Positions 7,976 to 30,891 of a stretch of DNA of 32,192 nucleotides are shown here, piece by piece; within the stretch, counting starts at the first letter, position 1, and each line of letters opens with the position of its first letter. Position numbers and translations under genes: made by a program. The stretch is from positions 1-32,192 of the IMG/VR virus record IMGVR_UViG_3300025699_000035; one strand, written 5' to 3'. A model generated the notes under the pieces. It was not told the origin of the DNA. It did not search any database and was given only the letters and a program-made list of their open reading frames with translations. This DNA comes from a virus.

Positions 7976-8431
7976 ATGACTAATGCAAGACTACACGTAC
8001 CACGTTCACTTTTTCTCGGATTCGAAGGTTTATTTGACGATTTAGAGAGGATTCATTCTTCTGCGCGCAATGGGGATAACTATCCACCTCATAACGTTGT
8101 GAAGATTGATGATGAGAATTTCCTCATTGAACTAGCAGTTGCAGGCTTTACTGAAGACGACTTAAACGTTGAAGTAAAGGAAGGCATACTGAAAGTTGCT
8201 GGAGAGATAAAAGACCAAGGGAATAATGAATACGTTCATAAAGGCATTTCGTCTCGCAGGTTCGAGAAATCATTTAGGATTTCAGAATTTGTAGTAATCG
8301 ACGATGCAGATCTAAGGAATGGCATACTTGTGGTGAAAGCCAGAGTTGAATTTCCAGAAGAGAAGCGTCCTAGGAAGATCAATATCGGATCTGCTGGGAC
8401 CTCAACCGAAAAAACCTTTATCCAAGATTGA
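7976..8431 (+). CDS. hsp20: Hsp20/alpha-crystallin small heat shock protein
   Basis: 151 residues with the alpha-crystallin domain at about residues 38-135: VVKIDDENFLIELAVAGF, DDLNVEVKEGILKVAGE, then the IbpA-like RRFEKSFRIS and LRNGILVVKARV. This is an ATP-independent holdase for partly unfolded proteins. Phage Hsp20 is a hallmark of marine T4-like phages, where it has been proposed to help capsid or tail assembly. It has a very strong ribosome site (AGGAGGT, 7963-7969). The short C-terminal tail ends with GTSTEKTFIQD. Confidence 0.93.
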   Translation: MTNARLHVPRSLFLGFEGLFDDLERIHSSARNGDNYPPHNVVKIDDENFLIELAVAGFTEDDLNVEVKEGILKVAGEIKDQGNNEYVHKGISSRRFEKSFRISEFVVIDDADLRNGILVVKARVEFPEEKRPRKINIGSAGTSTEKTFIQD

Positions 8432-8684: not shown

Positions 8685-8709
8685 ATACTTCTATTATGAA
8701 AAGGTGACT

Positions 8710-11217
8710 ATGAAATTCTATACTAATGTAACTCGTTATGGCAATCAACTACTCGTTCGTGGCTATGACGGTAATCGGCGATTCGCTGATAAAATCAAAT
8801 ACCAACCAACACACTTCGTATCGACAAACAAACCTACTGAATGGCAATCTCTATGTGGTAAACCCGTAGCGCCTATCACACATGATTCTATGCGTGAAGC
8901 TAAGGATTGGATTGAAATGAACAGTGGCGTCGTCGGCCGTAACATTTTTGGCAATGATCGATATATCTCTACGTATATCAATGATGCATATCCAGGTCAA
9001 ATCGAATTTGATCGTAACAAGATTAACGTAACTACAATCGATATCGAAGTTGAATCTGATGATGGATTCCCTGAACCTGAATCAGCAGAAAAAGCAATCA
9101 TATCAATCACAATTAAAAACAATATCGATGATACATATTACGTGTGGGCTCTAGGTGAATATGACGTAGAAAAGACACTTATGAAAGACCACCCTGTTAT
9201 CTACAAACGGTTCATCAATGAAGCTCAACTGCTTATGGCATTCACTGACTTCTGGCGTGGTCCTAATTGTCCTGATATCGTAACTGGTTGGAACTGCAGA
9301 TTCTTCGATATTCCATATCTTGTCAATCGTACAACCAAAGTCCTTGATGCTGAATTCGTTAAACGATACTCTCCGTGGGGTATGGTAGAATCACGTGATG
9401 TCACTCAGATGGGTCGCACTCAGCAGTCTTATGAACTTAAAGGCATAGCCATTATTGATTACCTCGAGCTCTTTAAGAAGTTCGGTTACTCTTACGGTCC
9501 ACAAGAATCATATAAACTCGACCATATTGCTCACGTAGTTCTTGGTGAAAAGAAACTATCCTACGAAGAACATGGAAACTTGCATACTCTCTATCTAAAC
9601 GATTATCAGAAGTTCATTGATTATAACATCAAAGATGTAGAGTTGGTTGATCGCTTCGAAGACAAGATGGGTCTTATTACTCTATGTCTCACAATGGCAT
9701 ATAAAGGTGGCGTTAACTATAATGATACCTTTGGTACAACTGCTATATGGGATTCAATCATCTATCGTGAATTGTTCCAAAAGAAAGTTGCTGTTCCATT
9801 CAGTGAAGTCAAATTCAAATCACCGTATCCTGGTGGTTATGTTAAAGATCCACAAGTAGGCCTTCACAAATGGGTTGTAAGCTTCGATTTGAATTCACTA
9901 TATCCATCATTGATTATGCAATATAACATGTCACCAGAAACAATCATCGAAGGCGAACGATGTAACGTTGACATTCAATCATTGCTTGATAAGAAAATGA
10001 CATTCGAAGGTAGCGGCAAATCGATTGGTGGTAATGGTCAAGTCTTTCGAACTGATAAGAAAGGCATCTTGCCTGATATCATCGATGGCATGTATACCGA
10101 ACGTGTTGGAATCAAACGTCAAATGCTTGATGCTCAACAAGCGTTACAGAATGCTGACAAGACTGATAAGCAAACCATATACAGTATCGAACGTGATATT
10201 GCCATTGCTGAAAACAGACAGATGTCTATCAAGATTCTTCTAAACTCTCTTTATGGTGCACTCGGCAACAAGTACTTCAGATTCTTTGATCAACGTATTG
10301 CTGAAGCTATCACATTGTCAGGTCAGCTATCGATCAAATGGGCTGAAGTTGCAATCAATGATTACCTTAACAAAGTACTTAAAACAGATAAAGATTATGT
10401 CATTGCAATCGATACCGATTCGCTTTATGTTAACCTAGACCCATTGGTAGAAGCTGTAAAACCTGCTAATCCTGTAGACTTTCTTGATACTGTTGCACAA
10501 AAGAAACTCGAACCAGCTCTTACTGAAGCATATACTAATCTATTCAATATGATGGGTGGCATTGAAAACAAGATGGTTATGGGTCGTGAAGTTATCGCTG
10601 ATACTGGAATCTGGACTGCTAAGAAACGTTACATCCTGAATGTACATGACAACGAAGGTGTACGTTATGCAGAACCTAAGCTCAAGATCATGGGTATCGA
10701 AGCTATCAAATCTTCCACTCCCATGCCATGTCGTGATGCTCTTAAAGACATCTTTAAGGTAATCATTGATGGTAGTGAATCGAAGACTCAAGCTGCAATC
10801 AAAGAGTTCAAGGACTACTTTGTGACACTACCTGCACATGACATTGCATTCCCGCGTGGTGTGTCTAAAGTCAAAGAATACAAAGACAACAAACTGATCT
10901 ATAAGAAAGGTACTCCTATTCATGTTCGCGGTAGTCTACTCTATAACAAACGTGTTAAGGATCTATCTCTTACGAAGAAGTATTCACCTATCAAAAACGG
11001 TGATAAGGTCAAATTCATCTATCTTCGTAAACCAAACGTCATCAAGGAAAACGTCATATCGTTTCCTGATTACCTACCATCTGAATTTGTAATCGATAAA
11101 TACATTGATTATGACTTACAGTTCCAGAAAACATTCCTTGATCCAATCGAACCGATCCTTGGTGCAATCGGCTGGTCTTCCGAAGAAAGAGCTTCCCTTG
11201 AAGACTTCTTTGGATAA
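8710..11217 (+). CDS. 43: family B DNA polymerase (gp43)
   Basis: 835 residues; T4 gp43 has 898. The N terminus (MKFYTNVTRYGNQLLVRGYD) resembles T4. The 3'-5' exonuclease Exo I motif TIDIEVES places Asp and Glu at residues 111 and 113 (T4 112 and 114). Polymerase motif A is FDLNSLYPSLI near residue 391, motif B KILLNSLYGALGNKYF near 511, and motif C IDTDSLY near 567. All catalytic acids are present, so it should be active. ATG 8710 is preferred over the GTG at 8704 because the AAGG ribosome site then has normal spacing. The C terminus (LEDFFG) ends in a likely clamp-binding peptide. It has its own promoter. Confidence 0.97.
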   Translation: MKFYTNVTRYGNQLLVRGYDGNRRFADKIKYQPTHFVSTNKPTEWQSLCGKPVAPITHDSMREAKDWIEMNSGVVGRNIFGNDRYISTYINDAYPGQIEFDRNKINVTTIDIEVESDDGFPEPESAEKAIISITIKNNIDDTYYVWALGEYDVEKTLMKDHPVIYKRFINEAQLLMAFTDFWRGPNCPDIVTGWNCRFFDIPYLVNRTTKVLDAEFVKRYSPWGMVESRDVTQMGRTQQSYELKGIAIIDYLELFKKFGYSYGPQESYKLDHIAHVVLGEKKLSYEEHGNLHTLYLNDYQKFIDYNIKDVELVDRFEDKMGLITLCLTMAYKGGVNYNDTFGTTAIWDSIIYRELFQKKVAVPFSEVKFKSPYPGGYVKDPQVGLHKWVVSFDLNSLYPSLIMQYNMSPETIIEGERCNVDIQSLLDKKMTFEGSGKSIGGNGQVFRTDKKGILPDIIDGMYTERVGIKRQMLDAQQALQNADKTDKQTIYSIERDIAIAENRQMSIKILLNSLYGALGNKYFRFFDQRIAEAITLSGQLSIKWAEVAINDYLNKVLKTDKDYVIAIDTDSLYVNLDPLVEAVKPANPVDFLDTVAQKKLEPALTEAYTNLFNMMGGIENKMVMGREVIADTGIWTAKKRYILNVHDNEGVRYAEPKLKIMGIEAIKSSTPMPCRDALKDIFKVIIDGSESKTQAAIKEFKDYFVTLPAHDIAFPRGVSKVKEYKDNKLIYKKGTPIHVRGSLLYNKRVKDLSLTKKYSPIKNGDKVKFIYLRKPNVIKENVISFPDYLPSEFVIDKYIDYDLQFQKTFLDPIEPILGAIGWSSEERASLEDFFG

Positions 11218-13230: not shown

Positions 13231-13690
13231 ATTTATCAATCAAATTAATAATCATAGATATGTCGTAGATGAGTGGTTACTCAATGCTTTAGAACAGGAG
13301 TATCAAAAAGGTTCTTATAGCAATAGGGACAATGTTGAAGCATTGGCTCTTGAACTTACGCTATATAAAGAATGCGGCTTTAGTAGACCATCTACATGGA
13401 GATATGACGTCAAACTATCTGAATCGTTATTCATTGATTTAAAACGTCGTCCAAAGTGGTCTAATAATATATCACTATCCGGTAAAGGTCACTTGGAAGA
13501 ATCTCATCGACTAGGTCAACTTACTCATATTGTAAGCTATACTCAAAACATTGAGAGTAATTATAAGATAGGAGATCTTCTTACATTTGATGCTGATGGT
13601 TACTTACCAGTCATGGAAGCATTAAACGTTGCACGGGATACGATGAGCTCTTACAAATTACTTGATAAAAAACGTTTACATTTGCGCTAA
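13214..13690 (+). CDS. hypothetical protein, 158 residues
   Basis: Not recognised. ATG 13214 has AAGGAG eight bases upstream, better than the earlier in-frame start at 13193. The product is soluble and mostly helical in its first half (VSKFINQINNHRYVVDEWLLNALEQEY), with a central basic-aromatic stretch. The last codons are also the -35 and spacer of the next promoter, so the C terminus (KKRLHLR) has been shaped by, or shapes, that promoter. Confidence 0.7.
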   Translation: MTTVSKFINQINNHRYVVDEWLLNALEQEYQKGSYSNRDNVEALALELTLYKECGFSRPSTWRYDVKLSESLFIDLKRRPKWSNNISLSGKGHLEESHRLGQLTHIVSYTQNIESNYKIGDLLTFDADGYLPVMEALNVARDTMSSYKLLDKKRLHLR

Positions 13691-13703
13691 AGTATGATAT
13701 AAT
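13675..13703 (+). promoter_or_regulatory. sigma-70-type promoter for the nucleotide-modification operon
   Basis: TTTACA (13675-13680), 17-base spacer with CTAAAGTATGA, TATAAT (13698-13703). It overlaps the 3' end of the preceding gene and lies 30 bases before ATG 13733. It is the third copy of the promoter type at 3495 and 8656. Confidence 0.88.
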
Positions 13704-13732
13704 ATATGTATATTAACGAGGAATATTAATAA

Positions 13733-14347
13733 ATGAAAGAATCTTTAAAAGTATTACAGGAATGCGCTGATCTACAGCTCAAAAAATCTAATGATTACCA
13801 AAACCCTAACTCAAACATTGTTCAAGCTGACTACTATCCACGTGGTGTTGCTACAATCCTTGATACAGTATATGGTAAAATACTCCGTATGTATTCAGTT
13901 CTTGAAGCAATGGAACATGATAAAGATTATAATCCCAACTTTGAATCGCTTGAAGATTCAGCAAAAGATCTAATCAACTATAGTTCATTCATTGTTGCTT
14001 ATATCCGTGGTGAAGTTGAAGGCCAATCAAATGATCGTGACTTCTTGAATCGTAAAGTAGAAGTTAAATCTTCTAATAAAGGAACATGGGATAGCTTCTT
14101 TGATAGTCATTGGTCCTCAGATGATCAGGTATGGCCTGATGAAATGCTAGACCTAACTGTAAATAATGGTAAATGCGAAGATCCTTCGCTACGTGTAAGT
14201 GGTGTTCCATTGCCAATTGATTCTGATTCAGTATACTTTCGAAACTTAAACACTGAACCAACTTACCTTGGTGATAACCATTGGCTGCGTAGTGATGGTA
14301 CAACATTCGAGAATGCACATCGACCTAAACCTAAGGATGCTAAATAA
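13733..14347 (+). CDS. DUF1599/Nmad1-like protein
   Basis: 204 residues. The N-terminal half (residues 1-100) has CADLQLKKSNDYQNPNSN, then ILDTVYGKILRMYSV and LEDSAKDLINYSSFIVAYI. This L.KK..DY ... K..R ... D..KDL.NY pattern is that of DUF1599, which I recall being named a nucleotide modification associated domain. The C-terminal half (about 110-204) is polar and of unknown fold. It is the first gene after a strong promoter, and its stop overlaps the start of dCMP hydroxymethylase, which fits a role in base modification or nucleotide sanitation. No biochemical function is known to me. Confidence 0.6.
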   Translation: MKESLKVLQECADLQLKKSNDYQNPNSNIVQADYYPRGVATILDTVYGKILRMYSVLEAMEHDKDYNPNFESLEDSAKDLINYSSFIVAYIRGEVEGQSNDRDFLNRKVEVKSSNKGTWDSFFDSHWSSDDQVWPDEMLDLTVNNGKCEDPSLRVSGVPLPIDSDSVYFRNLNTEPTYLGDNHWLRSDGTTFENAHRPKPKDAK

Positions 14348-15021
14348 TGATAATGCAAAATGTTGAAGATATTCGTCAATACTTTGTTGATGAACTAGAA
14401 GCAGAAAACTTTACAACTGATCGTACCGGTTCTAAAACAATTGAGCTACTTGGCGCATCATTTATTGCTGATGAAAATGCAATCTTCGGTACTCCAAATG
14501 AAGACTACATTCAAAAAGAACTTGAATGGTATGATAGCGAATCGACTAATATCTATGATATATCGAATGAGCCTCCTAAAGCATGGAAGATGACAGCCAA
14601 TGATCATGGTGAAATCAATTCAAACTATGGTAATCTAATCTATAATGCTAAACACTACAAGCAATACTATAACGTATTAAGTGAATTGCGTGGCAATGAG
14701 GATTCACGCCGTGCATCGATGGTATATCAACGTCCTTCTATATGGGTTGATTATGATGCTAATGGTAAGAATGATTTCATTTGTACGAATGCAGTAACGT
14801 ATTATATTCGTGATGATCAACTTCATTGTGTAGTTCAAATGCGATCTAATGATGTGGTCTTTGGTTATAAGAATGATTTCGCATGGCAAGAACATGTGCT
14901 ATATCACTTATGTCAAGATATAAATGACTTTCAAGGTAGACCACCAATTACAGTTGGTAATATCCATTGGCAGGTTCAGAATCTTCACGTATATGAGAGG
15001 CACTTTGATCTTGTCAAATAA
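14347..15021 (+). CDS. 42: deoxycytidylate 5-hydroxymethylase (gp42)
   Basis: 224 residues, close to T4 gp42 throughout: GSKTIELLGASFIADE, DYIQKELEWY, GEINSNYGNLIY, DFICTNAVTYYIRD and MRSNDVVFGYKNDFAWQ. The nucleophilic Cys is residue 146 (T4 Cys148). Asp177 corresponds to T4 Asp179, the residue that replaces the thymidylate synthase Asn and favours dCMP over dUMP. The enzyme would convert dCMP to 5-hydroxymethyl-dCMP with methylene-tetrahydrofolate. It ends at HVYERHFDLVK and lacks the last roughly 20 residues of T4 gp42. AAGGA is nine bases before the ATG. Its 3' end overlaps the dCMP deaminase gene. Confidence 0.95.
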   Translation: MIMQNVEDIRQYFVDELEAENFTTDRTGSKTIELLGASFIADENAIFGTPNEDYIQKELEWYDSESTNIYDISNEPPKAWKMTANDHGEINSNYGNLIYNAKHYKQYYNVLSELRGNEDSRRASMVYQRPSIWVDYDANGKNDFICTNAVTYYIRDDQLHCVVQMRSNDVVFGYKNDFAWQEHVLYHLCQDINDFQGRPPITVGNIHWQVQNLHVYERHFDLVK

Positions 15022-15457
15022 ATGGGATAAACGTTATATGGAATTGACCGAGGTGGTAGCATCTTGGTCAAAAGATCCATCAAAGAAAATAGGTGCCGTA
15101 GCCATTGGTTCTAAAGGTCAAGTATTGGCTCAAGGATTCAATGGCTTTCCTCGTGGCATCGATGATACTGATGAGCGATTAAATGATCGTTCTAAGAAGT
15201 ATAAGTATGTCGTCCACGCTGAAATGAACCTCATATATAATGCTACGTTCAATGGGATATCCCTTGATGGTTCAACCGTTTATATACATGGTTTGCCTCT
15301 TTGCTCTGAATGCGCAAAGGGTCTTATTCAAATCGGCGTGAAACGAATCGTAATGTGCAAAAACTCATTAGAAAACTCTGATGAAAAATGGCTAGAATCA
15401 TTTGAGCTCACTATACAATTACTTAACGAGGCAGGAATACATTGGAAAACCATATAG
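15011..15457 (+). CDS. cd: dCMP deaminase
   Basis: 148 residues. Zinc-dependent deaminase with HAE in YVVHAEMNLIYNA and PLCSEC for the second and third zinc ligands; FNGFPRGIDDT is typical of dCMP deaminases. It converts dCMP to dUMP, feeding the ThyX encoded at 24915. I choose the TTG at 15011, preceded by GAGG (14997-15000), because the product then begins MSNKWDKRYMEL, the usual N terminus. An ATG at 14993 is in frame but has no ribosome site. It overlaps the hydroxymethylase gene by 11 bases; the two enzymes compete for dCMP. Confidence 0.93.
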   Translation: MSNKWDKRYMELTEVVASWSKDPSKKIGAVAIGSKGQVLAQGFNGFPRGIDDTDERLNDRSKKYKYVVHAEMNLIYNATFNGISLDGSTVYIHGLPLCSECAKGLIQIGVKRIVMCKNSLENSDEKWLESFELTIQLLNEAGIHWKTI

Positions 15458-15475
15458 ATACTAACACAACATTAA

Positions 15476-15485
15476 CTCACGTGAG
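15476..15485. other. 10-bp palindrome upstream of the inositol-phosphate synthase gene
   Basis: CTCACGTGAG is a perfect palindrome in the 84-base gap between the deaminase and inositol-phosphate synthase genes. This gap has no TTTACA-N17-TATAAT promoter. It could be an operator, or coincidence. Confidence 0.3.
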
Positions 15486-15541
15486 CTACTCTGATCCAGT
15501 CAAATCTCTCACATAAAAAAACTGATATAAAGGAGAAAATT

Positions 15542-16822
15542 ATGTCAAAAATTAATATCGCTATCGCAGGCGTAGGTAACTGTTCATCGGCACTTATTCA
15601 AGGTGTCCAATATTATAACGAAAAACCAGAAGACACTATCGGCTTGATGTTTCAAGACATTGGTGGTTATTCAGCTCCAGATTTTAATTTTGTAGTTGGC
15701 TTCGATGTTGATTCACGTAAGGTAGGTCGACGATTAAATACTGCAATCTACGCAAAACCCAATTGTAACATGGAAGTATTTCCTCCAGGTCACGACATGA
15801 GTTGTATTGCTAACGAATCAGTAGTATATCGATCACCAACCCTTGATGGTATTGCACCTCATATGAATGATCTAAATGAAAATATTTCGTTTTTAGAAGA
15901 TACAGAAACAGCTCCAATTACTGCTTCTGAATATCGTGATATTCTTAAAGCTCGTAATGTTGACGTCTTACTTAACTATATGCCAGTAGGTTCAGAAGAA
16001 GCAGCTCAATGGCATATCGAAAATGCTATTCGTGCAGGAGTACATGTTGTTAACTGTATGCCAACTTATATTTCTACTAAAGACGCTATGGAATTAGAAC
16101 AGCTTGCTATCGAACACGGTGTAACAATCGTTGGTTCTGATATGCGTTCTGATTATGGCGCGTCTCGTTTATCTGAAGTCCTTCAAGGATCTATTATGGA
16201 TTCAGGTCTATTAGTTACTCAACATATTCAAGAAAACAAAGCTTGTGGTACAACACAAGGCGATATGCGTAGAACTGGACGTACTGCTAATACTGATTTT
16301 CTAAACATGGCAACTAAAGATCGTTTAAAGAATAAACATATCTCAAAAGAAAATGTTCTTAATGGTCAGGCTGCAGTACGTGGTAAAGATATTGCTGGTC
16401 TTACAATGTATGCTGGTCCATCTCTTACAGTTTTCCAAAAACCAGGTGATGAGTATATTGGATCTGATAATAAGATTGCTAATATCGATATGGTGTTTTG
16501 GGGTTGGGCAGGAGCTCGTTATGAATTGACTGCTCGATTATCTGTTCAAGATTCTCCTAACAGTGCTGGTATCGTATATGATGCTATTCGATTCTGTAAA
16601 GTAGCGGCTGAAATGGGTATTGTTGGTTACTTACGTGGTCCATCAGCATGGTCACAGAAGACTCCACCTCAACAGCTTAAAACTGCAGATTCTAAGTTCG
16701 AATGTGATGCATTAGCTCGTAGAGTTCTAACTGATATTACTCGTCCACAACTTAAAGAAAATAATCCTAAAGTTGAGAACCTAACTTATACATTCCAATC
16801 AGGTGAAAATGATTATGACTAA
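15542..16822 (+). CDS. ino1: myo-inositol-1(3)-phosphate synthase-like protein
   Basis: 426 residues, longer than the roughly 360 of actinobacterial Ino1. N-terminal NAD-binding Rossmann motif AGVGNCSSALIQG (residues 9-21), then NYMPVGSEEA, TANTDFLNM (248-256) and QDSPNSAGIVYDAIR (336-350), all hallmarks of the prokaryotic inositol-phosphate synthase family. The enzyme turns glucose-6-phosphate into inositol-phosphate through NAD-linked oxidation, aldol cyclisation and reduction. The family motif GDDxKSQ reads GSDMRSDYGAS (198-208): the usual Asp is Ser and the Lys is Arg, so activity or product may differ. It heads an overlapping gene series with a phosphatase and DNA-modification-type proteins. 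The strong ribosome site AAAGGAG precedes the ATG. Confidence 0.85.
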   Translation: MSKINIAIAGVGNCSSALIQGVQYYNEKPEDTIGLMFQDIGGYSAPDFNFVVGFDVDSRKVGRRLNTAIYAKPNCNMEVFPPGHDMSCIANESVVYRSPTLDGIAPHMNDLNENISFLEDTETAPITASEYRDILKARNVDVLLNYMPVGSEEAAQWHIENAIRAGVHVVNCMPTYISTKDAMELEQLAIEHGVTIVGSDMRSDYGASRLSEVLQGSIMDSGLLVTQHIQENKACGTTQGDMRRTGRTANTDFLNMATKDRLKNKHISKENVLNGQAAVRGKDIAGLTMYAGPSLTVFQKPGDEYIGSDNKIANIDMVFWGWAGARYELTARLSVQDSPNSAGIVYDAIRFCKVAAEMGIVGYLRGPSAWSQKTPPQQLKTADSKFECDALARRVLTDITRPQLKENNPKVENLTYTFQSGENDYD

Positions 16823-17216
16823 ATTAATTAACACTTTTGATATAGTATATCAAATTAACACTTTTGATATAGATGGTGTAATATATTTTGGTGAAGAATT
16901 TACAGGAGTAAGACCTGGAGAAAATGATGTTATTATCACAGGTCGTTCATATACACAACGAGAAGAAACAGAAACTATGCTTAAATCTCGCGGCATATAT
17001 AATACTGTTATGTATAATCCCATTAGCCGAGACCATGAGTCATACTCTAGAGAAGAAAGTGGTCGTCACAAAGCTCGTTGTATTGAAACTCTAAAAGAAA
17101 CATATGATATTGGACTTCATTTTGAAGATGATCCTGTTCAAATCGAAGAAATCAAAAAGGTCCATTCAGAATTGAACGTAATTCATTTAGTAAGAGAGGG
17201 TCTCATTGGCTACTAA
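16815..17216 (+). CDS. HAD-superfamily phosphatase-like protein
   Basis: 133 residues from ATG 16815, which overlaps the end of the synthase gene; in-frame GTG 16803 and ATG 16809 are alternatives. Motif I FDIDGV holds the two catalytic Asp, motif II is VIITGRS, motif III is probably the Lys in GRHKARC and motif IV is HFEDDPVQIEEI. It is a small, cap-less HAD fold. Next to an inositol-phosphate synthase it could dephosphorylate inositol-phosphate or a modification intermediate, but substrate cannot be inferred from sequence. The N terminus carries a 9-residue tandem duplication (INTFDI repeated), so the first copy is extra. Confidence 0.75.
   Translation: MTKLINTFDIVYQINTFDIDGVIYFGEEFTGVRPGENDVIITGRSYTQREETETMLKSRGIYNTVMYNPISRDHESYSREESGRHKARCIETLKETYDIGLHFEDDPVQIEEIKKVHSELNVIHLVREGLIGY
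16826..16872 (+). repeat. tandem duplication at the HAD motif I
   Basis: A 20-base sequence beginning AATTAACAC occurs at 16826-16845 and again at 16853-16872, offset by 27 bases (9 codons, in frame). It doubles the peptide INTFDI; only the second copy continues into the catalytic DIDG. Confidence 0.9.
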
Positions 17217-18267
17217 TAACTATAACTATGATTGGTGGTCTTATGATAAAGACCTCATGCTTGATTTTAATCATTTCTTAAAGAAAATCAATGATAGAGC
17301 TGCTATTCAACAAGGCTTTACGACTGATCAATACGAAAATCTAAATCGCCACGGAGTAGTAGATTATGGACTAGGTGAGAACGTTGAGTACTTTCATCCA
17401 ACTATTACTTTAGATGATCGTATGAGATTCATTGGTACTGAAATTGCAACATCCAATATGAGTGATACCAATATCGTTGGTAACACAATCATATCTCATT
17501 TCTATGGAGCTCGTGGTGTTCACTGGGTAGTATCAGGAAAGGAAGGAACCTTCGTTGATTTTGACCGTATTGCTGATGGTGATGATGACTATATTAAGTC
17601 TTTACGAAATAATGTAGATAAAGCTATTAAGAATAAACAGCCAATCTGGGGAACAACTGAACTTCATACTTCTATTCAAACATCTGGTAGAAACTATTGT
17701 CGTAAAAAGTATAATGATCCTGATCGTAAGTTTCATCCAGTTGATGTGAGTGAATGGGTTGCATCTTTTAAAGATTCTAAAATCATTGAAGGTATGTTAG
17801 CAGCAAAGGATCTTTATGAAGTGTTTACTCTATTGCGAACATTGCCTGGAGTTGGAGAATACTATGGATTCCATTGCGCAACTTCAACATCGGTTTTACC
17901 TCAAATGAAGTATCATCATGATCAACGATTTGTTGCTCCTGGCCCTGGTGCAGTTTATACGATAAAACTCTTATGGCCAAATGTTCCTAATAAGTATCTT
18001 GCTGAAGCAATTTATTTTATGAGAGAAAACGCAGCTGAAATTGGTTTGACTAAGGATGTTACATTCCATGAATCTGCATATAATATTGAATTAGACAATG
18101 GTTCACATTTATTTAAAGAACAACAGAATGGATTAAAGTACTATGGTACTGAGGTTCTATGTTGTCAGTATGGTGTATATCTGCAGATAAGAGATGACGA
18201 AAAAGCTTGCGGTCGAAGGAAGGTATCAAGAGTAAAACAACAGAATACCCTATCGGAGTTTATGTAA
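17206..18267 (+). CDS. DNA hypermodification-type HhH protein (aGPT-Pplase/HMUDK-helical family)
   Basis: 353 residues. TTG 17206 is the likely start: GAGAGGG ends five bases upstream and it overlaps the HAD stop. A helix-hairpin-helix TLPGVGEYYG lies at residues 212-221, followed by HHDQRFVAPGPGAVYTIKLLWP (237-258), the D...FV.PGPGA signature that I associate with alpha-glutamyl/putrescinyl-thymine pyrophosphorylases and the helical domain of 5-hmdU DNA kinases (PF18723). The middle has RNYCRKKYNDPDRKFHP. In thymine-hypermodifying phages such proteins displace the pyrophosphate on a modified hydroxymethyl base with an amine. No P-loop kinase is fused or adjacent. The family call is by motif; it could also be a DNA glycosylase-like protein. 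Confidence 0.65.
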   Translation: MATNNYNYDWWSYDKDLMLDFNHFLKKINDRAAIQQGFTTDQYENLNRHGVVDYGLGENVEYFHPTITLDDRMRFIGTEIATSNMSDTNIVGNTIISHFYGARGVHWVVSGKEGTFVDFDRIADGDDDYIKSLRNNVDKAIKNKQPIWGTTELHTSIQTSGRNYCRKKYNDPDRKFHPVDVSEWVASFKDSKIIEGMLAAKDLYEVFTLLRTLPGVGEYYGFHCATSTSVLPQMKYHHDQRFVAPGPGAVYTIKLLWPNVPNKYLAEAIYFMRENAAEIGLTKDVTFHESAYNIELDNGSHLFKEQQNGLKYYGTEVLCCQYGVYLQIRDDEKACGRRKVSRVKQQNTLSEFM

Positions 18268-18989
18268 TGGAATATCAAACATTTAAAGATGTTATTTGTA
18301 GAAAGGGAAGTGGTACTGATAGAAAAATGATAAATGATTGTATACAAAATTACAAATATTTTAATTTTACACCAGGATCGATTGTATTAGATTTTGGAGC
18401 TAATATTGGTGGATTTGCTCATATGTGTAAACATGATAACGTAGAGAAGTATGTTGGGTTTGAAGCTGATCCGGATAATTTTACAGTTCTTTCTAAAAAT
18501 ATTCCGGATCATGGAATAATACATCATGCAGCAGTATCGCATTTACATGATGACACAATTACATTTCATAGAACTCCAACAGAAAAAGGTGCATGCTCGG
18601 GTACAGTCACACCAAGTAGAAATACAATAAAAAAAAGATCATTAAAATATGACGTAACAAACCACTTCATCGATGATATAATAGAATTACATAAGCCAAC
18701 GCATCTTAAAATGGATATTGAAGGAACTGAATTTGATTGGTTTAAACTAAATAATGGTAAAATACCAGAATGCATAAATGAGTTTGCTTTAGAATTTCAT
18801 AATCATGAAAAGGTTTATAAATTTGTAGAATTGTGGTATAATACTATAGTAGAAGATTTTGATATTATTAACGTTGCTCATGCAACAGGGTTTAGAAATA
18901 ACATACCTTTTGAAATACCAGAACTTGGTATTAAAGAAGAAAGGGGTGGAAAACTGTGGGGCATTGACATATTTATGAGAAGAAAATGA
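18267..18989 (+). CDS. FkbM-family SAM-dependent methyltransferase
   Basis: 240 residues from ATG 18267, which overlaps the preceding stop (TAATG) and has GGAG eight bases upstream; the longer in-frame start at 18207 is rejected. SAM-binding motif I VLDFGANIGGF, then VGFEADPDN (motif II) and LKMDIEGTEFDWF, the FkbM signature. FkbM enzymes O-methylate sugars, peptides and lipids. In this cluster it may methylate a hydroxyl of the group attached to DNA, or a surface glycan instead. AT-content is higher than in neighbouring replication genes (many AAA/ATA codons), compatible with separate acquisition. Confidence 0.85.
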   Translation: MEYQTFKDVICRKGSGTDRKMINDCIQNYKYFNFTPGSIVLDFGANIGGFAHMCKHDNVEKYVGFEADPDNFTVLSKNIPDHGIIHHAAVSHLHDDTITFHRTPTEKGACSGTVTPSRNTIKKRSLKYDVTNHFIDDIIELHKPTHLKMDIEGTEFDWFKLNNGKIPECINEFALEFHNHEKVYKFVELWYNTIVEDFDIINVAHATGFRNNIPFEIPELGIKEERGGKLWGIDIFMRRK

Positions 18990-19969
18990 AGAATATAATT
19001 AATTGTCCATTTATACCAATAGCAAAACGTCATGCTTCTCATAGAGGAGCTCAAGGTGTTATATATGGTGATATGATTAAACAAAAATATGGCCATTGCG
19101 ATGTTAACTATGGTGGTGAAATTGTAGATCATAATCAATATGACAACCTATGGGTATATCATGGCAGCGATTACAGTGGTGGTCTTAACATGTTTGGTGG
19201 TGTTTATGGGTTTCCATATGTTCAAAACACTGTTAACTTTTCTAAATTTAAAGGCCAAGTCTATTCTATAGGGATAGACTTTCCGCCATATCATGAAATG
19301 CTTAAGAATAAACTAGAATCAGCTAAAAGAGAAGTTCAACCTGAATGGGAACATGTTGATTTAGAAAATCTTAAAAGAATGCATGATACAGCAATAAGAG
19401 TCGATTATCCTAATCCAACTGATAAGCTTGTCATTGGTGATAGCCATTCTATATGTATGTACCGGCCTGGTTGGACAGTTAATAGTGTTCCATTCAAAAC
19501 TCTTAACGGAGCTTTAAAAGAAGGATTTGATTCTTTTATTCCACATGATTATAAAGAACTTCATTGCTATTTTGGTAATATCGATGTGCGTCATCATATT
19601 ATTAGATTAGAAGCTTCTATCATAGATTTAGCTGATAGATATATGGAAGAGGCTGGTAAATATAATGCTAAGATATATGAACTTCTACCAATTGAGAATG
19701 AATCTAGAAAAATACCACAATCAGGGTATCACAAAGGTCAACCATTCTGGGGTTCATGGCAGGAAAGAACTGATATTCGTAATCAGTTTAATGACTATAT
19801 CGAAAAGGAATATGGCATCATACGATGGACTGATAAGCTCTATAATAATATTGGTGAGCTTGATTTTAAGTATATGGAAAAACCAAAGTCTATTCATTTA
19901 TCTCGTGAATTCTATCCGTACTGGAATGGGATTCAATCTAACAACAATACACTAGAGGAATTTTTTTAA
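18986..19969 (+). CDS. SGNH/GDSL-like protein
   Basis: 327 residues, overlapping the methyltransferase stop by 4 bases. The C-terminal part begins with LVIGDSHSICMYRPG (block I, nucleophile Ser in GDSHS), has YFGNIDVRHH (block III, G.N.D) and SIHLSREFYPYW with a candidate catalytic His, although the usual Asp of D..H is not evident. The first about 150 residues form a separate domain of unknown fold (GDMIKQKYGHCDVNYGG, MFGGVYGFPYVQN). SGNH proteins hydrolyse or transfer acyl and carbohydrate esters. Here it may trim or acylate the same substrate that FkbM methylates. Confidence 0.65.
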   Translation: MKNIINCPFIPIAKRHASHRGAQGVIYGDMIKQKYGHCDVNYGGEIVDHNQYDNLWVYHGSDYSGGLNMFGGVYGFPYVQNTVNFSKFKGQVYSIGIDFPPYHEMLKNKLESAKREVQPEWEHVDLENLKRMHDTAIRVDYPNPTDKLVIGDSHSICMYRPGWTVNSVPFKTLNGALKEGFDSFIPHDYKELHCYFGNIDVRHHIIRLEASIIDLADRYMEEAGKYNAKIYELLPIENESRKIPQSGYHKGQPFWGSWQERTDIRNQFNDYIEKEYGIIRWTDKLYNNIGELDFKYMEKPKSIHLSREFYPYWNGIQSNNNTLEEFF

Positions 19970-19970
19970 A

Positions 19971-21158
19971 ATGGCAACTTGGGCAAGTATAGTACCACTT
20001 ATTGGTGGAGAAACAATTGCAATGGAGAATGTGTTCGGTAAACGACCTGAGTATATTTTGTCATATAGTGCGTTTGCAAGTAATGATTCTCAAATACTGA
20101 ATCACTATAATAATGAAGTACCATATCACGTGATTGATGAAGGTAATGGTAAGACTGACTATGTTGATATAGTCAATACAGTATGTCCATGTGCTGGTCT
20201 TTCTTCGTTATCTCCACAAGCCAATTCAAACAGTGCTATGAATAACTGGATGTATGAATCAGCAGAATATGTGTTGGGTAAGGTTAAACCTAAAGTATTC
20301 TGGGGAGAGAACGCACCAAGACTTGCATCTAAGATGGGTGAACCTGTTGTTAAACGTCTTCGAAAGATTGCTGAAGATCATGGGTATGTTTTTAGCATAT
20401 ATAAAACTAAGAGCATATTGCATGGTCTGTCACAAGTTCGAGACAGAACTTTTTACTTTTTTTGGAAAGGAGACCTAGTGCCACTCCTTGGCTACGTTAG
20501 TGAGCCACACATTACTATTGAAGATCATATCCGTTCTATCGAAAGACGCGAAGATGATCCAATGAACGTACTAACAAACGATAAAAAACCATCTGATAAT
20601 CCTTACTATCGATACGTATTAGAAGTTATTGAGGGTGGTATTACGCATTCTGAGTTTCAAGATAAGATCGAAAAAACAACTAATCCAATGGGCTATATTG
20701 AAGATCATACTAATTATAAAGTTGTTGCTGAGTGGATGCGTGAACAAGGTTACGATAATGTTGCTAAGAAATGTGATAGACAATATCATAAGCTTAAAGC
20801 TGGTGGTAACATTATGCGTAAGACTACAGAGATTCCTAAGGGTAAAATAGGTGCCTTTGTAGGTCATATGCCAACGTGTCTTACTCATCCAGATGAAGAC
20901 CGTTATTTAACTGTTCGTGAAGCTATGTCAATTATGAAGCTTCCAACAGATTTTCAACTGATAAATCCCAAAGCTAATCTAAATCATATATGTCAAAATG
21001 TTCCTGTTACAACAGCAGAGCATCCAGCGCGCATGATAAAGAAATGGCTTGAAGGAAATCTTGATTCAATTGAAACTAAATTCTTAGTCGAAGACAATAA
21101 GAAACGTACTTATGATTATGAAAATAAAGGTTTACAATTGGATGAATTTATGATATAA
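19971..21158 (+). CDS. C5-cytosine DNA methyltransferase-like protein
   Basis: 395 residues. Motif IV CPCAGLSS holds the catalytic Cys at 74, motif VI is ENAPRL (113-118), motif VIII QVRDRTFYF (155-163), and a C-terminal LTVREAMSIMKLPTDFQL with HICQNVPV fits motifs IX-X and a target recognition region between. Motif I is unusual: instead of DLFAGxGG the start reads VPLIGGETIAMENVFG. The catalytic residues suggest a working C5 enzyme. In a phage that makes hydroxymethyl-dCMP, a plain 5-methylation role is puzzling. It closes the modification block and its final codons form the promoter of the bS21 gene. Confidence 0.8.
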   Translation: MATWASIVPLIGGETIAMENVFGKRPEYILSYSAFASNDSQILNHYNNEVPYHVIDEGNGKTDYVDIVNTVCPCAGLSSLSPQANSNSAMNNWMYESAEYVLGKVKPKVFWGENAPRLASKMGEPVVKRLRKIAEDHGYVFSIYKTKSILHGLSQVRDRTFYFFWKGDLVPLLGYVSEPHITIEDHIRSIERREDDPMNVLTNDKKPSDNPYYRYVLEVIEGGITHSEFQDKIEKTTNPMGYIEDHTNYKVVAEWMREQGYDNVAKKCDRQYHKLKAGGNIMRKTTEIPKGKIGAFVGHMPTCLTHPDEDRYLTVREAMSIMKLPTDFQLINPKANLNHICQNVPVTTAEHPARMIKKWLEGNLDSIETKFLVEDNKKRTYDYENKGLQLDEFMI

Positions 21159-21159
21159 T
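21131..21159 (+). promoter_or_regulatory. sigma-70-type promoter for rpsU and uvsX
   Basis: TTTACA (21131-21136), 17-base spacer, TATAAT (21154-21159). It overlaps the last codons and the stop of the methyltransferase gene. The ATG of rpsU is 28 bases downstream. Confidence 0.85.
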
Positions 21160-21186
21160 ATACTATTAATCAACAAAGAGAAAACT

Positions 21187-21424: not shown

Positions 21425-22483
21425 ATGAGTGTTATGGATAAATTAAAGAAGAATTCTAAGATCAAGGAAACTTCTATTCTAAACGAAAGCATATTCTTTT
21501 CAGTAAAAGATCAAGTTGCAACTGAGGTGCCAATGGTTAACGTTGCATTATCAGGTGATCCAGATGGTGGTCTATCATCAGGTCTTACTGTACTTGCTGG
21601 TCCATCAAAGCATTTTAAAACATCATTTGCTTTATTGATGGCTGCAGCTTATCTAAAAAAACATAAAGATGCTGTTTGTTTATTCTATGATTCAGAGTTT
21701 GGTTCACCTCAATCGTACTTTGAAACATTTGGTATCGATGCGAGCCGTGTACTACATACTCCTATCGTTGATGTTGAGCAACTTAAGTTTGATCTAGTTG
21801 GTCAATTAGATAATATTGAACGTAAAGATAATGTAATTATCGTAATCGATTCAATTGGTAACCTTGCTTCTAAGAAAGAATTACAAGATGCTAAGGATGA
21901 GAAATCAGTTGCTGATATGTCTCGTGCTAAAGCTCTTAAAGGTCTATTCCGTATGGTAACACCATATCTAACAATGAGAAACATCCCATTGCTAGCTATC
22001 AACCATACATACCAAGAAATGGGTCTATTTCCTAAAGCAGTTGTTTCAGGCGGTACGGGTATCTATTACTCAGCCGATAACATTTGGATCTTAGGTCGTC
22101 GACAGAATAAGACTGGTACTGAAGTAACTGGTTATGACTTTGTTATTAATGTGGAGAAATCAAGGTTTGTTAAAGAGAAATCTAAAGTGCCTATTCAAGT
22201 TTCTTGGGATGGCGGTATTGAGTCTCATTCAGGTTTGCTTGATGTCGCTCTTGATGGTAATTACGTTGCTAAGCCTTCTAATGGTTGGTATTGCCGTGTT
22301 GATCGTAGTACCGGTGAATTGGTGCAACCAAAGGTTAGGGAAAAAGAAACTCTAACACCAGAATTCTGGGAACCTATCTTTAAGGATACTGATTTTAAAA
22401 CGTATCTAACTGAGAAATATCAAATAGGTGCTAAACAATCTAATGAAAAAAACCGTTTACAAGAGGATGAAAATGAGTTATAA
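21425..22483 (+). CDS. uvsX: UvsX, RecA-like recombinase
   Basis: 352 residues (T4 391). Walker A GPSKHFKTS (residues 59-67) is the T4-type variant rather than the RecA GPESSGKT form; Walker B is VIIVIDSIGN, and RAKALKGLFRMVTPYLT with LLAINHTYQEMG fits the RecA core. It forms filaments on single-stranded DNA for strand exchange and recombination-dependent replication. The order uvsX-small genes-gp41 follows T4. TAGGAAG lies upstream of the ATG. The acidic C terminus (RLQEDENEL) overlaps a further promoter-like sequence. Confidence 0.95.
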   Translation: MSVMDKLKKNSKIKETSILNESIFFSVKDQVATEVPMVNVALSGDPDGGLSSGLTVLAGPSKHFKTSFALLMAAAYLKKHKDAVCLFYDSEFGSPQSYFETFGIDASRVLHTPIVDVEQLKFDLVGQLDNIERKDNVIIVIDSIGNLASKKELQDAKDEKSVADMSRAKALKGLFRMVTPYLTMRNIPLLAINHTYQEMGLFPKAVVSGGTGIYYSADNIWILGRRQNKTGTEVTGYDFVINVEKSRFVKEKSKVPIQVSWDGGIESHSGLLDVALDGNYVAKPSNGWYCRVDRSTGELVQPKVREKETLTPEFWEPIFKDTDFKTYLTEKYQIGAKQSNEKNRLQEDENEL

Positions 22484-25652: not shown

Positions 25653-25728
<76 letters not shown>

Positions 25729-25733
25729 ATTAT

Positions 25734-25809
25734 TCCGCCTTAGCTCAGTTGGTAGAGCAAATGACTGTTAATCATTGGGTCGCTGGTTCGAGCCCAGCAG
25801 GCGGAGCCA
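25734..25809 (+). tRNA. tRNA-Asn (GUU)
   Basis: 76 bases with encoded CCA. Acceptor TCCGCCT pairs AGGCGGA; anticodon loop CTGTTAA gives GTT; T-loop TTCGAGC. It starts five bases after the Thr tRNA, so both probably come from one transcript. Confidence 0.96.
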
Positions 25810-28924: not shown

Positions 28925-29284
28925 ATGATAACTTATAGCACGAATTGGATGGGTCCAATAGCAACACGATGGTATGAGGATAGAGATATTCCGTTTGAGA
29001 TCAGAGAAACTTCTGGTAAAATACTGCCTAAAACTGAGTACAAACACTTCTTAGAATCGTATTCTTGTGGTCGCATAGATATATATGGATTAGATGAAAG
29101 TGAGCATTGGAGTGGTAAGTCTGAGTACAGTGTTGCTCCAATGCGAACTGAAGATTGGAATGCTTTTGGTGATTGGTTGGATGAGTTGGAAACTTACGAG
29201 TTGGCTACATACGAAGAACTGATCGATCAATTCGAGCATTACATCGGGAAAGCGATAAGGTGGGTAGAAAATGCAGACTCCTGA
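28925..29284 (+). CDS. conserved phage protein, 119 residues
   Basis: AGGACA precedes the ATG. ITYSTNWMGPIATRWYEDR, CGRIDIYGLD and FGDWLDELETYELATYEELIDQFE form a distinctive pattern seen in many phages with small early-gene clusters; function unknown. Overlaps the following ATG by 14 bases. Confidence 0.75.
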   Translation: MITYSTNWMGPIATRWYEDRDIPFEIRETSGKILPKTEYKHFLESYSCGRIDIYGLDESEHWSGKSEYSVAPMRTEDWNAFGDWLDELETYELATYEELIDQFEHYIGKAIRWVENADS

Positions 29285-29582
29285 TAGTTGGGTCGTACTG
29301 AAGATAACCGCAGAGACTGGTGTCATCTACAAAGTCTTAGCAGGATGGAGCGGTGGTTATCTTGATGGTGATTCTTGGCGATTGAATAGTGGCATTAGTA
29401 TAGTCTTTGAGAGAGAAGATAGTGTAGACTTCTACGGTAATAGTGGATCACTGTATCGTTGTCGTAAAGGTTCTTACGGACTAAGAATGGGTACAGCAGG
29501 AATCTACAATGATATAATATCACGCTTTGGCGACAAAGTAGAGATGATGCCTGAAGACACAGATTGGAAAAATTTACTATGA
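29271..29582 (+). CDS. phage protein, paralogue of the 30496 gene
   Basis: 103 residues. WVVLKITAETGVIYKVLAGWSGGYLDGDSWRLNSGI, then GNSGSLYRCRKGSYGLRMGTAGIYNDII and GDKVEMM. The order W.VL ... VLAGW ... G..WR.S/NSGI ... G..Y ... A...II ... G..VEM recurs in the gene at 30496, so the two are diverged duplicates. Function unknown. Confidence 0.7.
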   Translation: MQTPDSWVVLKITAETGVIYKVLAGWSGGYLDGDSWRLNSGISIVFEREDSVDFYGNSGSLYRCRKGSYGLRMGTAGIYNDIISRFGDKVEMMPEDTDWKNLL

Positions 29583-29875
29583 CAGATCCTAAAGATAAGA
29601 AACCTGAGCTTGATTGGACAGATGATGAGTACTATGAAGGCGCTTGGAGTTGGGTAGACGAGCTCGAGCTCAAATATGAAGACAATACATTGGAGGATTC
29701 ATTGGTAGAACTGAATAACGTTAATCGACTTGAGATTATAGATCAAACTGGTCGTGCATATACACACCATCTAACCAAAAATGAAAGTGTTCGATATAGT
29801 CTACAGGATGATAATCGAACACTTAAAATATTTATTGCAAATATACTCGAGGTGATAAAGAATGACAATGCCTGA
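29579..29875 (+). CDS. conserved acidic phage protein, 98 residues
   Basis: ATG 29579 overlaps the previous stop. Acidic and Trp-rich start (LDWTDDEYYEGAWSWVDELELKYED) and LEIIDQTGRAYTHHLTKNES, then NRTLKIFIANI. This pattern is common in phage early-gene clusters; no function known to me. Confidence 0.7.
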   Translation: MTDPKDKKPELDWTDDEYYEGAWSWVDELELKYEDNTLEDSLVELNNVNRLEIIDQTGRAYTHHLTKNESVRYSLQDDNRTLKIFIANILEVIKNDNA

Positions 29876-30194
29876 TGAAAGAAGAAATGCCGTAAACATT
29901 ACTAGGCAGTTTCTATTGGACTTACTTGATCCAAAGAAAACTCCGAGAGTACCGAGTGCAATAAGAAAGGAAGCTGGTCGATGTCTAAGACATTATCCAG
30001 GTGAATACTATATGGAGAAAGCTCGAGAACAAGCACCAGAACTATTTGGAGATTGGGACGATTACTACGTTAAAGATGAACAAGCGCCTGAACCATTCGG
30101 TGATGGGGGTGATTACTACGTTAAAGGTGAAGAAGTGCTTTCACCATTCGGTGATGGGAATTGGGATGCCCACATCATACATAATGATGGATGA
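29862..30194 (+). CDS. BPSL0761-like protein with 17-residue repeats
   Basis: 110 residues. The N-terminal half (MTMPDERRNAVNITRQFLLDLL, TPRVPSAIRKEAGRCLRHYP) matches the BPSL0761 family pattern. The C-terminal half is a tandem repeat: residues 58-74 and 75-91 share AP(E)xFGDxxDYYVKxE, and a third partial unit follows. The frame ends after an odd AHIIHNDG tail. Another DYYVK unit exists after the stop in a different frame. Function unknown. Confidence 0.65.
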   Translation: MTMPDERRNAVNITRQFLLDLLDPKKTPRVPSAIRKEAGRCLRHYPGEYYMEKAREQAPELFGDWDDYYVKDEQAPEPFGDGGDYYVKGEEVLSPFGDGNWDAHIIHNDG

Positions 30195-30213
30195 CTACTA
30201 CGTTAAAGAGGAA
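30033..30213 (+). repeat. 51-bp tandem repeat array
   Basis: Units begin at 30033, 30084 and 30135; each encodes an FGD...DYYVK segment. The sequence GACTACTACGTTAAAGAGG at 30193 is the end of a further unit, now beyond the stop and shifted by one base. Confidence 0.75.
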
Positions 30214-30220
30214 AATGAGA

Positions 30221-30499
30221 ATGAGTAAGTTTGTTTTAGTAGAATGTGTTAGTACTTTTCGTATGCGATATGCTGTAGAATTAAATGACGATGATCCAGT
30301 CGAATGGGCACTTGATACTGTAGTGATGAATCCTGATAATGAATTAGGTCAACAGCATCTTGGTGAACAAATAGTTTCACATCGAGTAGTAACAACTGAT
30401 GAGATTGTCGAACTCGCTAAAGAAGATAGTCCTGTAGGTCATTGGTCTAAAGATGATGTATTAAATAAACTCACGAATAGAATTAAGGATGATGTATGA
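30221..30499 (+). CDS. conserved phage protein, 92 residues
   Basis: ATG 30221 has GAGG nine bases upstream; the longer frame from 30191 reads the repeat remnant and is rejected. FVLVECVSTFRMRYAVELNDDDPVEWALDTVVM and HLGEQIVSHRVVTTDEIV match a small conserved phage family without known function. Confidence 0.7.
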   Translation: MSKFVLVECVSTFRMRYAVELNDDDPVEWALDTVVMNPDNELGQQHLGEQIVSHRVVTTDEIVELAKEDSPVGHWSKDDVLNKLTNRIKDDV

Positions 30500-30891
30500 G
30501 TAAGTTAGGAAGCGAACCTTTGATGTTTAATCCCACTGCACCAGAACAAAATATAGTTCCGGAATATTGGGTGTTAATGAAAATGCAAGTCGATCGTGAT
30601 GTATTCTTCCAAGGACCTAATATGGTTATCCTTGCTGGTTGGGGCGCAAAACAACTAGATATTCCATTTTCTGATGGGCGGTGGAGACGATCAACTGAGA
30701 TCATCTCTATTACTAATTCAAAAGATAAGTATATAGTTAAGACTGAATCAGGATCAGAGTATATTCTAAATAAGTTAAGTGAGAAGGTACATCCTTTAGC
30801 CGAAGGTGCTTATAAAGCCATTATCGATCATGGTGGCGAACAAGTCGAAATGCTAAACTATTTTATGCAACCTGAGGATGGTGCGCTATAA
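30496..30891 (+). CDS. phage protein, paralogue of the 29271 gene
   Basis: 131 residues. YWVLMKM, VILAGWGAKQLDIPFSDGRWRRSTEI, TESGSEYILNKLSEKVHPLAEGAYKAII and GGEQVEML follow the same layout as the 29271 protein, with about 20 extra N-terminal residues. Stop and next start overlap (TAATG). Function unknown. Confidence 0.7.
   Translation: MSKLGSEPLMFNPTAPEQNIVPEYWVLMKMQVDRDVFFQGPNMVILAGWGAKQLDIPFSDGRWRRSTEIISITNSKDKYIVKTESGSEYILNKLSEKVHPLAEGAYKAIIDHGGEQVEMLNYFMQPEDGAL

Follow-up and report, generated by a model that had tools for sequence, protein, structure and literature searches.

A candidate cytosine hypermodification island with a T4-type dCMP hydroxymethylase and a predicted cyclitol supply in a virus with T4-type replication genes

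The genes for cytosine decoration in T4-like phages are kept at a common genomic site. The T4 gene order is 43-42-beta-gt-uvsX-41, and the arabinosylation genes of RB69 are located between 43 and uvsX, the Mosigvirus (RB69-type) enzyme having been described in 2026 as a 5-hydroxy-dCMP synthase (PMC13390438). In the thymidine hypermodification systems (PaMx11 PUGT/ADDT and ViI-type) a free small molecule is linked to a 5-hydroxymethyl pyrimidine by the HhH-fold class of DNA transferases. Here an island of nine genes was analysed in a 32,192-base virus record with T4-type replication genes (IMG/VR IMGVR_UViG_3300025699_000035, positions 1 to 32,192); this whole stretch is referred to as the window. 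The island (13733-21158) consists of nine + strand open reading frames (ORFs), all adjacent or overlapping. On balance, it probably encodes an early-expressed cytosine hypermodification pathway, in which a cyclitol supplied by a myo-inositol-1(3)-phosphate synthase (MIPS) homologue and a HAD phosphatase would be attached to 5-hydroxymethylcytosine (hmC) by a pair of proteins with HhH and SGNH folds. All nine consecutive or overlapping genes reported in an initial annotation of the sequence were recovered at the same positions, and eight of the nine labels were borne out by Pfam, PHROG, PDB, NCBIfam, motif or fold matches, leaving the DUF1599 label of the first gene unconfirmed.

The gene order in the window is polymerase, island, uvsX and gp41. 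The slot that holds gene 42/beta-gt in T4 is marked on its left by an ORF for a T4 gp43-type DNA polymerase (8704-11217, + strand; 37% to the DNA polymerase of Stenotrophomonas phage Moby) and on its right by a UvsX recombinase (21425-22483, + strand; 54% to Moby UvsX), so that the island, lying between polymerase and uvsX, is at the usual site of cytosine-decoration genes in T4-like phages. In common with T4 hmC glucosylation, this slot contains a T4-type dCMP hydroxymethylase and a protein whose N-terminus is probably similar to T4 beta-glucosyltransferase (BGT). However, no UDP-glucose-transferase donor domain was found in the island, which adds genes for MIPS, HAD, HhH, C5-cytosine-methyltransferase (C5-MTase) and FkbM. 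The RB69 system for 5-arabinosyl-cytosine is likewise a set of modification genes in this slot by which the phage makes its own decoration, but RB69 uses a 5-hydroxy-dCMP synthase where the window enzyme is T4-type, and arabinose isomerase was not found in the island.

The hydroxymethylase (14353-15021, + strand) matched PF00303 (8.5e-18), and its best match in the PDB was T4 gp42 (1b49, 5.3e-71). Its identity was 51% to T4 gp42 compared with 25% to RB69 ORF048c, which disfavours an RB69-type 5-hydroxycytosine. The enzyme has the thymidylate-synthase fold, and in all 67 hydroxymethylase homologues the catalytic Cys was present and the Asn of the synthase was replaced by an equivalent of Asp179. 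This Asp gives gp42 its dCMP specificity, and the window enzyme would accordingly be expected to make 5-hydroxymethyl-dCMP (hm5dCMP). A ThyX is present in the window, so the hydroxymethylase gene is not needed for dTMP; the T4-type enzyme, the invariant cytosine-specifying Asp and ThyX together make hmC the expected starting base. The hydroxymethylation proposed in the initial annotation is supported, and the pyrimidine, which it had left open, is narrowed to cytosine.

The MIPS homologue (15542-16822, + strand), the predicted cyclitol supply, matched PF01658 (5.2e-7) and phrog_33138 (3e-106). Comparison with the PDB gave mycobacterial INO1 as the best match (1gr0, 1.4e-48), and the NCBIfam INO1 model was matched at 6.5e-58 with 196.6 bits, below the equivalog cut-off of 638; on these scores the protein is a member of the same superfamily as INO1 and not the mycothiol orthologue. 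Lys265, Lys269, Lys311 and Lys373, which we take to be the active-site lysines with roles as in yeast MIPS, were invariant across 13 viral homologues. Viral MIPS of the window type contain a short insertion near the catalytic region, around residues 233-247, that is missing from mycobacterial INO1 and from the enzymes of Moby and Caulobacter phage Cr30; insertion-type and canonical MIPS were both found in the same island type. The adjoining gene encodes a HAD phosphatase (16809-17216, + strand) with HAD motifs I-IV, predicted to be an inositol-phosphate phosphatase. Its motifs DxDGV, TG[RK], Lys and DD were kept in 38 homologues spanning three modification settings, and its comparison with PDB sequences gave no significant match.

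The HhH-fold protein (17206-18267, + strand) is a candidate cyclitol:hmC-DNA transferase or base-presenting partner. It matched the HMUDK_hel family (PF18723) at 8.5e-10 with 38.9 bits, above the curated cut-off of 25, and PF18723 was matched by 40 of 41 homologues at E up to 0.1; a Pfam match to ADDT (PF18724) was obtained for none of the 41. The AlphaFold2 (AF2) model had a pLDDT of 90, and its best PDB match was PUGT, the DNA glycinyltransferase of phage PaMx11 (8z2n, Z 11.2), the other structural matches being mostly of Z 6-10 and including DNA glycosylases and queuine salvage enzymes. The earlier label of an aGPT-Pplase/HMUDK-helical type was correct as to HMUDK_hel and not as to ADDT, although the fold is nearest to a member of that class. 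Asp239 was conserved in 39 of the 41 homologues and Glu316, Cys320 and Gln321 in all of them. These also contain, without exception, an E-x3-C-[QK]-aromatic motif that is common to PUGT and many ADDT proteins. A similar E-x3-C motif is present in PaMx11 gp50, a kinase-associated HMUDK_hel protein that adjoins a P-loop kinase, and the motif therefore does not prove transfer; the family alone cannot separate a transferase from a base-presenting partner. Profile-profile comparison of HhH with ADDT gave a P of 9.5e-4, which is suggestive only. When the window was compared with locus L009 the near flanks were 94-97% identical and the replacement was confined to 17217-18232, which covers almost the whole HhH gene, the gene found there in L009 (9162-10244) being a 27% relative. 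This HhH-only replacement pattern was observed in 30 of 945 locus pairs. With thymidine hypermodification the island shares the HhH-fold DNA transferase class, the presence of HMUDK_hel and the predicted linking of a free small molecule to a 5-hydroxymethyl pyrimidine. The differences are that the base is expected to be cytosine, that the supply is of a cyclitol and not an amino acid, that the family is by Pfam HMUDK_hel and not ADDT, and that no P-loop DNA kinase was recognised among the island proteins and ten other proteins scanned in the window, which is a fragment.

The SGNH-fold protein (18986-19969, + strand) was modelled by AF2 with a pLDDT of 90, giving an SGNH fold over residues ~139-320 with Z up to 13. 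Gly151-Asp-Ser-His154, Gly197, Asp200, Arg202-His-His204 and His304 were invariant in 40 of 40 homologues. The fold carries the Ser, Gly, Asn and His blocks of SGNH hydrolases, but the Asp of the DxxH block was not found in the family, position 301 being mostly Lys or Gln. The T4-Gluco-transf Pfam model was matched by 13 of the 40 homologues (best 6e-5), and the N-terminus gave a 49-column profile match to T4 BGT (P 7.4e-5); a direct comparison of the hidden Markov model (HMM) of the SGNH family with T4 BGT scored no better than shuffled BGT. The N-terminus probably resembles T4 BGT. The GT-B fold with a UDP-glucose domain of a T4 beta-glucosyltransferase was not found, the C-terminal half modelling as SGNH, and the earlier SGNH-like label is thus retained for the fold and amended by a probable BGT-like N-terminal domain. 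The family is nearly absent from cellular genomes, with 12 matches, mostly to metagenome-assembled fragments.

The assignments of the hydroxymethylase, MIPS, HAD and SGNH fold are strongly supported by sequence comparison, and from these and their context we infer the free inositol donor, its attachment to hmC and the role of HhH as the cyclitol-specific step. By strong homology, the hydroxymethylase would produce hm5dCMP, which would be incorporated into DNA as hmC. Homology and gene context together suggest that MIPS would convert glucose-6-phosphate to inositol phosphate, from which HAD would strip the phosphate. The free cyclitol released in this way would most simply be myo-inositol, and HhH and the SGNH protein with its BGT-like N-terminus would jointly link it to the 5-hydroxymethyl group of hmC in DNA, by a route related to that of the HhH-fold DNA transferases that place amino acids on activated 5-hydroxymethyluracil, and FkbM, where present, would methylate the product. 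The decoration would substitute for the glucose of T4 and would shield virion DNA from restriction.

Co-occurrence of MIPS with DNA-modification genes was counted only in MIPS-fetched loci, which were the best-scoring ones of several hundred and formed 78 non-redundant groups; samples drawn through SGNH or HhH are biased and were kept out of these counts. A DNA-base-modification gene was found near MIPS in 75 of the 78, with HhH and/or SGNH in 42, ADDT in 25 and QueC in 8, and a TET/JBP oxygenase accompanied 18 of the 25 ADDT-type loci. The contigs of the other three end beside MIPS, and two of these carry a hydroxymethylase. Over all locus groups taken together, HAD was located downstream of MIPS at 2.2 kb or less in 92 of the 104 with room to see it, and follows MIPS in all three settings (HhH/SGNH, ADDT and QueC). 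The initial annotation had suggested a search for inositol-phosphate synthase near the HhH protein, and this neighbourhood recurs; its proposal that a hydroxymethyl-pyrimidine carries not glucose but an unusual group, perhaps one derived from inositol, is favoured by the occurrence of MIPS and HAD beside base-modification genes in nearly every virus checked. The HMM searches did not place the two proteins in unrelated families, the outcome it had named as counter-evidence: the HhH protein fell in the 5-hmdU-DNA-kinase helical family and the synthase was a true MIPS relative.

The islands with TET/JBP and ADDT (L208 and L256, and Cr30 for ADDT) resemble the window in having MIPS and HAD beside a DNA transferase, and differ from it in the ADDT family, in TET/JBP hydroxylation (L208, L256) and in having no SGNH. 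The cultured phage Cr30, most of which is annotated as hypothetical, has genes for MIPS, HAD, ADDT (PF18724, 1.3e-52) and a TAGT-like protein in close proximity (L004 6732-11257). The Menderavirus 7-deazaguanine cluster (Moby and Ps15) also has MIPS embedded among base-modification genes in both phages, with HAD beside MIPS in Moby, but its chemistry is that of a purine (QueC, QueE, transglycosylase). In cultured Moby (L003 8995-13621) MIPS-HAD is inside the QueC/QueE cluster, and in L219, L234 and L270 MIPS and HAD lie within or beside 7-deazaguanine genes (QueC, QueE, transglycosylase). Moby-type clusters hint at a cyclitol-decorated deazaguanine. A paper on Menderavirus treated MIPS as an acquired bacterial gene and made no link to DNA (PMC9025141), and no literature linking inositol to phage DNA modification was found, though phage MIPS may have been mentioned briefly before. 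A wider reading, put forward tentatively and at somewhat less than even chance, is that MIPS and HAD form a portable viral cyclitol-supply cassette joined to three DNA-base chemistries (hmC with HhH/SGNH, TET/JBP-linked ADDT and 7-deazaguanine). Inositol-decorated DNA would then be a widespread unrecognised modification class, and in its hmC version the kinase-based route would be replaced by SGNH and HhH acting as a pair.

Among 70 SGNH-fetched loci, MIPS was found in 37, HAD in 36 and HhH in 33, and HhH as a separate gene occurred only with MIPS, all 33 being within the 37. Ten of the loci lacking MIPS were examined in detail and have SGNH followed by a ~405-residue family; most add a ~360-residue family and/or a ~298-residue protein, two of the latter weakly matching a PLP-enzyme family. 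Neither the ~405- nor the ~360-residue partner family gave a significant match to HhH or ADDT. In L307, L363, L342, L361 and L334 this arrangement of SGNH and the ~405-residue family was accompanied by PLP-like, Lysine_decarbox/SLOG-like or CitG-like enzymes, and in several of them the ~360-residue family has an E-x3-C motif. These loci are possibly another DNA decoration system. From its distribution SGNH looks like a shared core, with MIPS-HAD-HhH as one exchangeable chemistry module.

Aeromonas phages 44RR, 31 and 25 have gene 42 but no glucosyltransferases, and their final modification was left open by a 2010 review (PMC2993671). Phage 44RR lacks both MIPS and HAD and encodes an SGNH-HhH fusion of 795 residues directly downstream of an SGLT-type symporter gene; among the Aeromonas records, the HhH domain and the symporter each occur in 19, and these two sets coincide. 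The pattern points to a free polyol as a requirement of HhH, obtained either by synthesis through MIPS and HAD or by import, and the symporter in place of MIPS and HAD in 44RR fits a free, unphosphorylated acceptor. In phage 25 (L006 4776-8047), an hmC-type phage without known glucosyltransferase, genes for UDP-galactopyranose mutase, an unnamed glycosyltransferase-looking protein and the SGNH protein are adjacent. Its p227nc, considered as an HhH protein, was rejected when no match was obtained.

Several observations weigh against the attachment of a cyclitol to hmC by the HhH/SGNH pair. The literature searched reports no DNA chemistry for any of these phages, and the SGNH family occurs without MIPS in 33 of the 70 loci, including 44RR and phage 25. 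The closest solved relative of the 44RR symporter is vSGLT and some records annotate a galactose transporter, so a sugar is a possible substrate. The insertion of the window MIPS is near the catalytic region, so its product could differ. With no DNA kinase recognised in the island, any leaving group that is needed lacks an explanation, and as HMUDK_hel is a kinase-associated family, the role of HhH may be confined to presenting the base. In a somewhat unlikely alternative, the SGNH protein itself forms the bond, for instance by transferring an acyl or other group to the hydroxyl of hmC, and the contribution of HhH is limited to binding DNA and flipping the base, the part that HMUDK_hel seems to play for the kinase of thymine systems. 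The invariant catalytic-type residues of SGNH, its fusion to HhH in 44RR, its wider distribution and the position of HMUDK_hel beside a P-loop kinase in PaMx11 are all consistent with this. However, separate-gene HhH tracks MIPS and HAD where SGNH does not, so that HhH looks cyclitol-specific, and the swapping of HhH alleles alone between near-identical phages suits an enzyme that determines the chemistry or the target.

It is rather unlikely that the MIPS product is a cyclitol other than myo-inositol, or is attached still phosphorylated. The MIPS family does include a five-membered-cyclitol-phosphate synthase (6k96, 1.1e-25) and the window-type enzyme has its insertion, but INO1 is the best match, the four conserved lysines are invariant, insertion-type and canonical enzymes occur in the same island type, suggesting the same product, and the HAD neighbour favours dephosphorylation. 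A beta-glucosyltransferase remodelled into the SGNH protein, with hmC left plain or given a conventional sugar donated by a host nucleotide-sugar, is improbable: it would be compatible with the BGT-like N-terminal match and with the pairing of SGNH and UDP-galactopyranose mutase in phage 25, but the C-terminal half models as SGNH and not as a GT-B donor domain, no nucleotide-sugar gene was found in the island, and MIPS and HAD would be left unexplained. Least probable is another role of MIPS and HAD in infection, for an osmolyte or in the metabolism of host lipids or thiols, their place in the island being an accident of sharing an early operon. Enzymes of the MIPS type are common in metabolism, and in Menderavirus MIPS was described as an acquired bacterial gene with no link drawn to DNA (PMC9025141), but its pairing with three kinds of DNA-modification genes in all the non-redundant loci except three cut ones argues against this.

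The remaining island genes include a dCMP deaminase (15005-15457, + strand; PF00383 1.4e-17, phrog_174 3.7e-38). The first gene (13733-14347, + strand) encodes a protein that looks like DUF1599 and all-alpha NTP-pyrophosphatases, a label given from appearance; it had no match in Pfam or NCBIfam and matched only unnamed phage families (phrog_1485 6e-12, phrog_18404 1.9e-8). The FkbM-family methyltransferase (18267-18989, + strand; TIGR01444 2.3e-16, PF05050 4.7e-10) is optional, being found in about half of the loci with HhH and SGNH, and may O-methylate the added group. The C5-MTase homologue (19971-21158, + strand; PF00145 2.1e-17) has intact catalytic motifs, the PC, ENAP and QxRxR motifs being invariant in 26 homologues, with PLIGG rather than FxGxG as motif I. 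Its nearest relative in the phage collection is from a cyanophage and lies outside such an island, and therefore does not explain the role of the C5-MTase here.

A 48-nucleotide repeat resembling T4 early promoters (GTTTAC ... TATAAT) has nine copies in the window, at 1797, 3479, 8640, 11210, 13659, 21115, 22440, 26247 and 26489, which probably mark early transcription units. By consensus match only, one + strand copy (13659-13706; GTTTACA, 17 nucleotides, TATAAT; 11/12) lies just upstream of the island and another (21115-21162, + strand) at its end. Promoter-type matches inside the island were weaker, and with strong repeats at both ends the block therefore looks like one early unit. The same gene block was found in many IMG/VR contigs; because of this recurrence and the flanking repeats, the island is not a chance arrangement. 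Elsewhere in the window there are an HSP20/alpha-crystallin family protein (7976-8431) upstream of the DNA polymerase, two neighbouring tRNA genes, Thr(TGT) and Asn(GTT) (25653-25809), and a run of some six + strand ORFs (28925-30891), most of them overlapping and each coding for only ~100-130 residues, that contains repeats of 36-51 nucleotides at 30027-30224.

The cultured phages 44RR, Cr30 and Menderavirus make the cyclitol reading testable. An inositol ether of hmC and glucosyl-hmC have the same elemental composition, inositol and glucose both being C6H12O6, and mass spectrometry alone could therefore have misread it; acid stability, nuclear magnetic resonance or inositol labelling is needed. 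If the reading is true, the nature of the hmC cap in 44RR, 31 and similar Aeromonas phages (PMC2993671) would become testable in culture, and the island would supply two new enzymes that together place chemical tags on DNA. Many uncultured T4-like viruses would then carry inositol on their DNA, with inositol or a close relative acting as DNA armour against bacterial defences.

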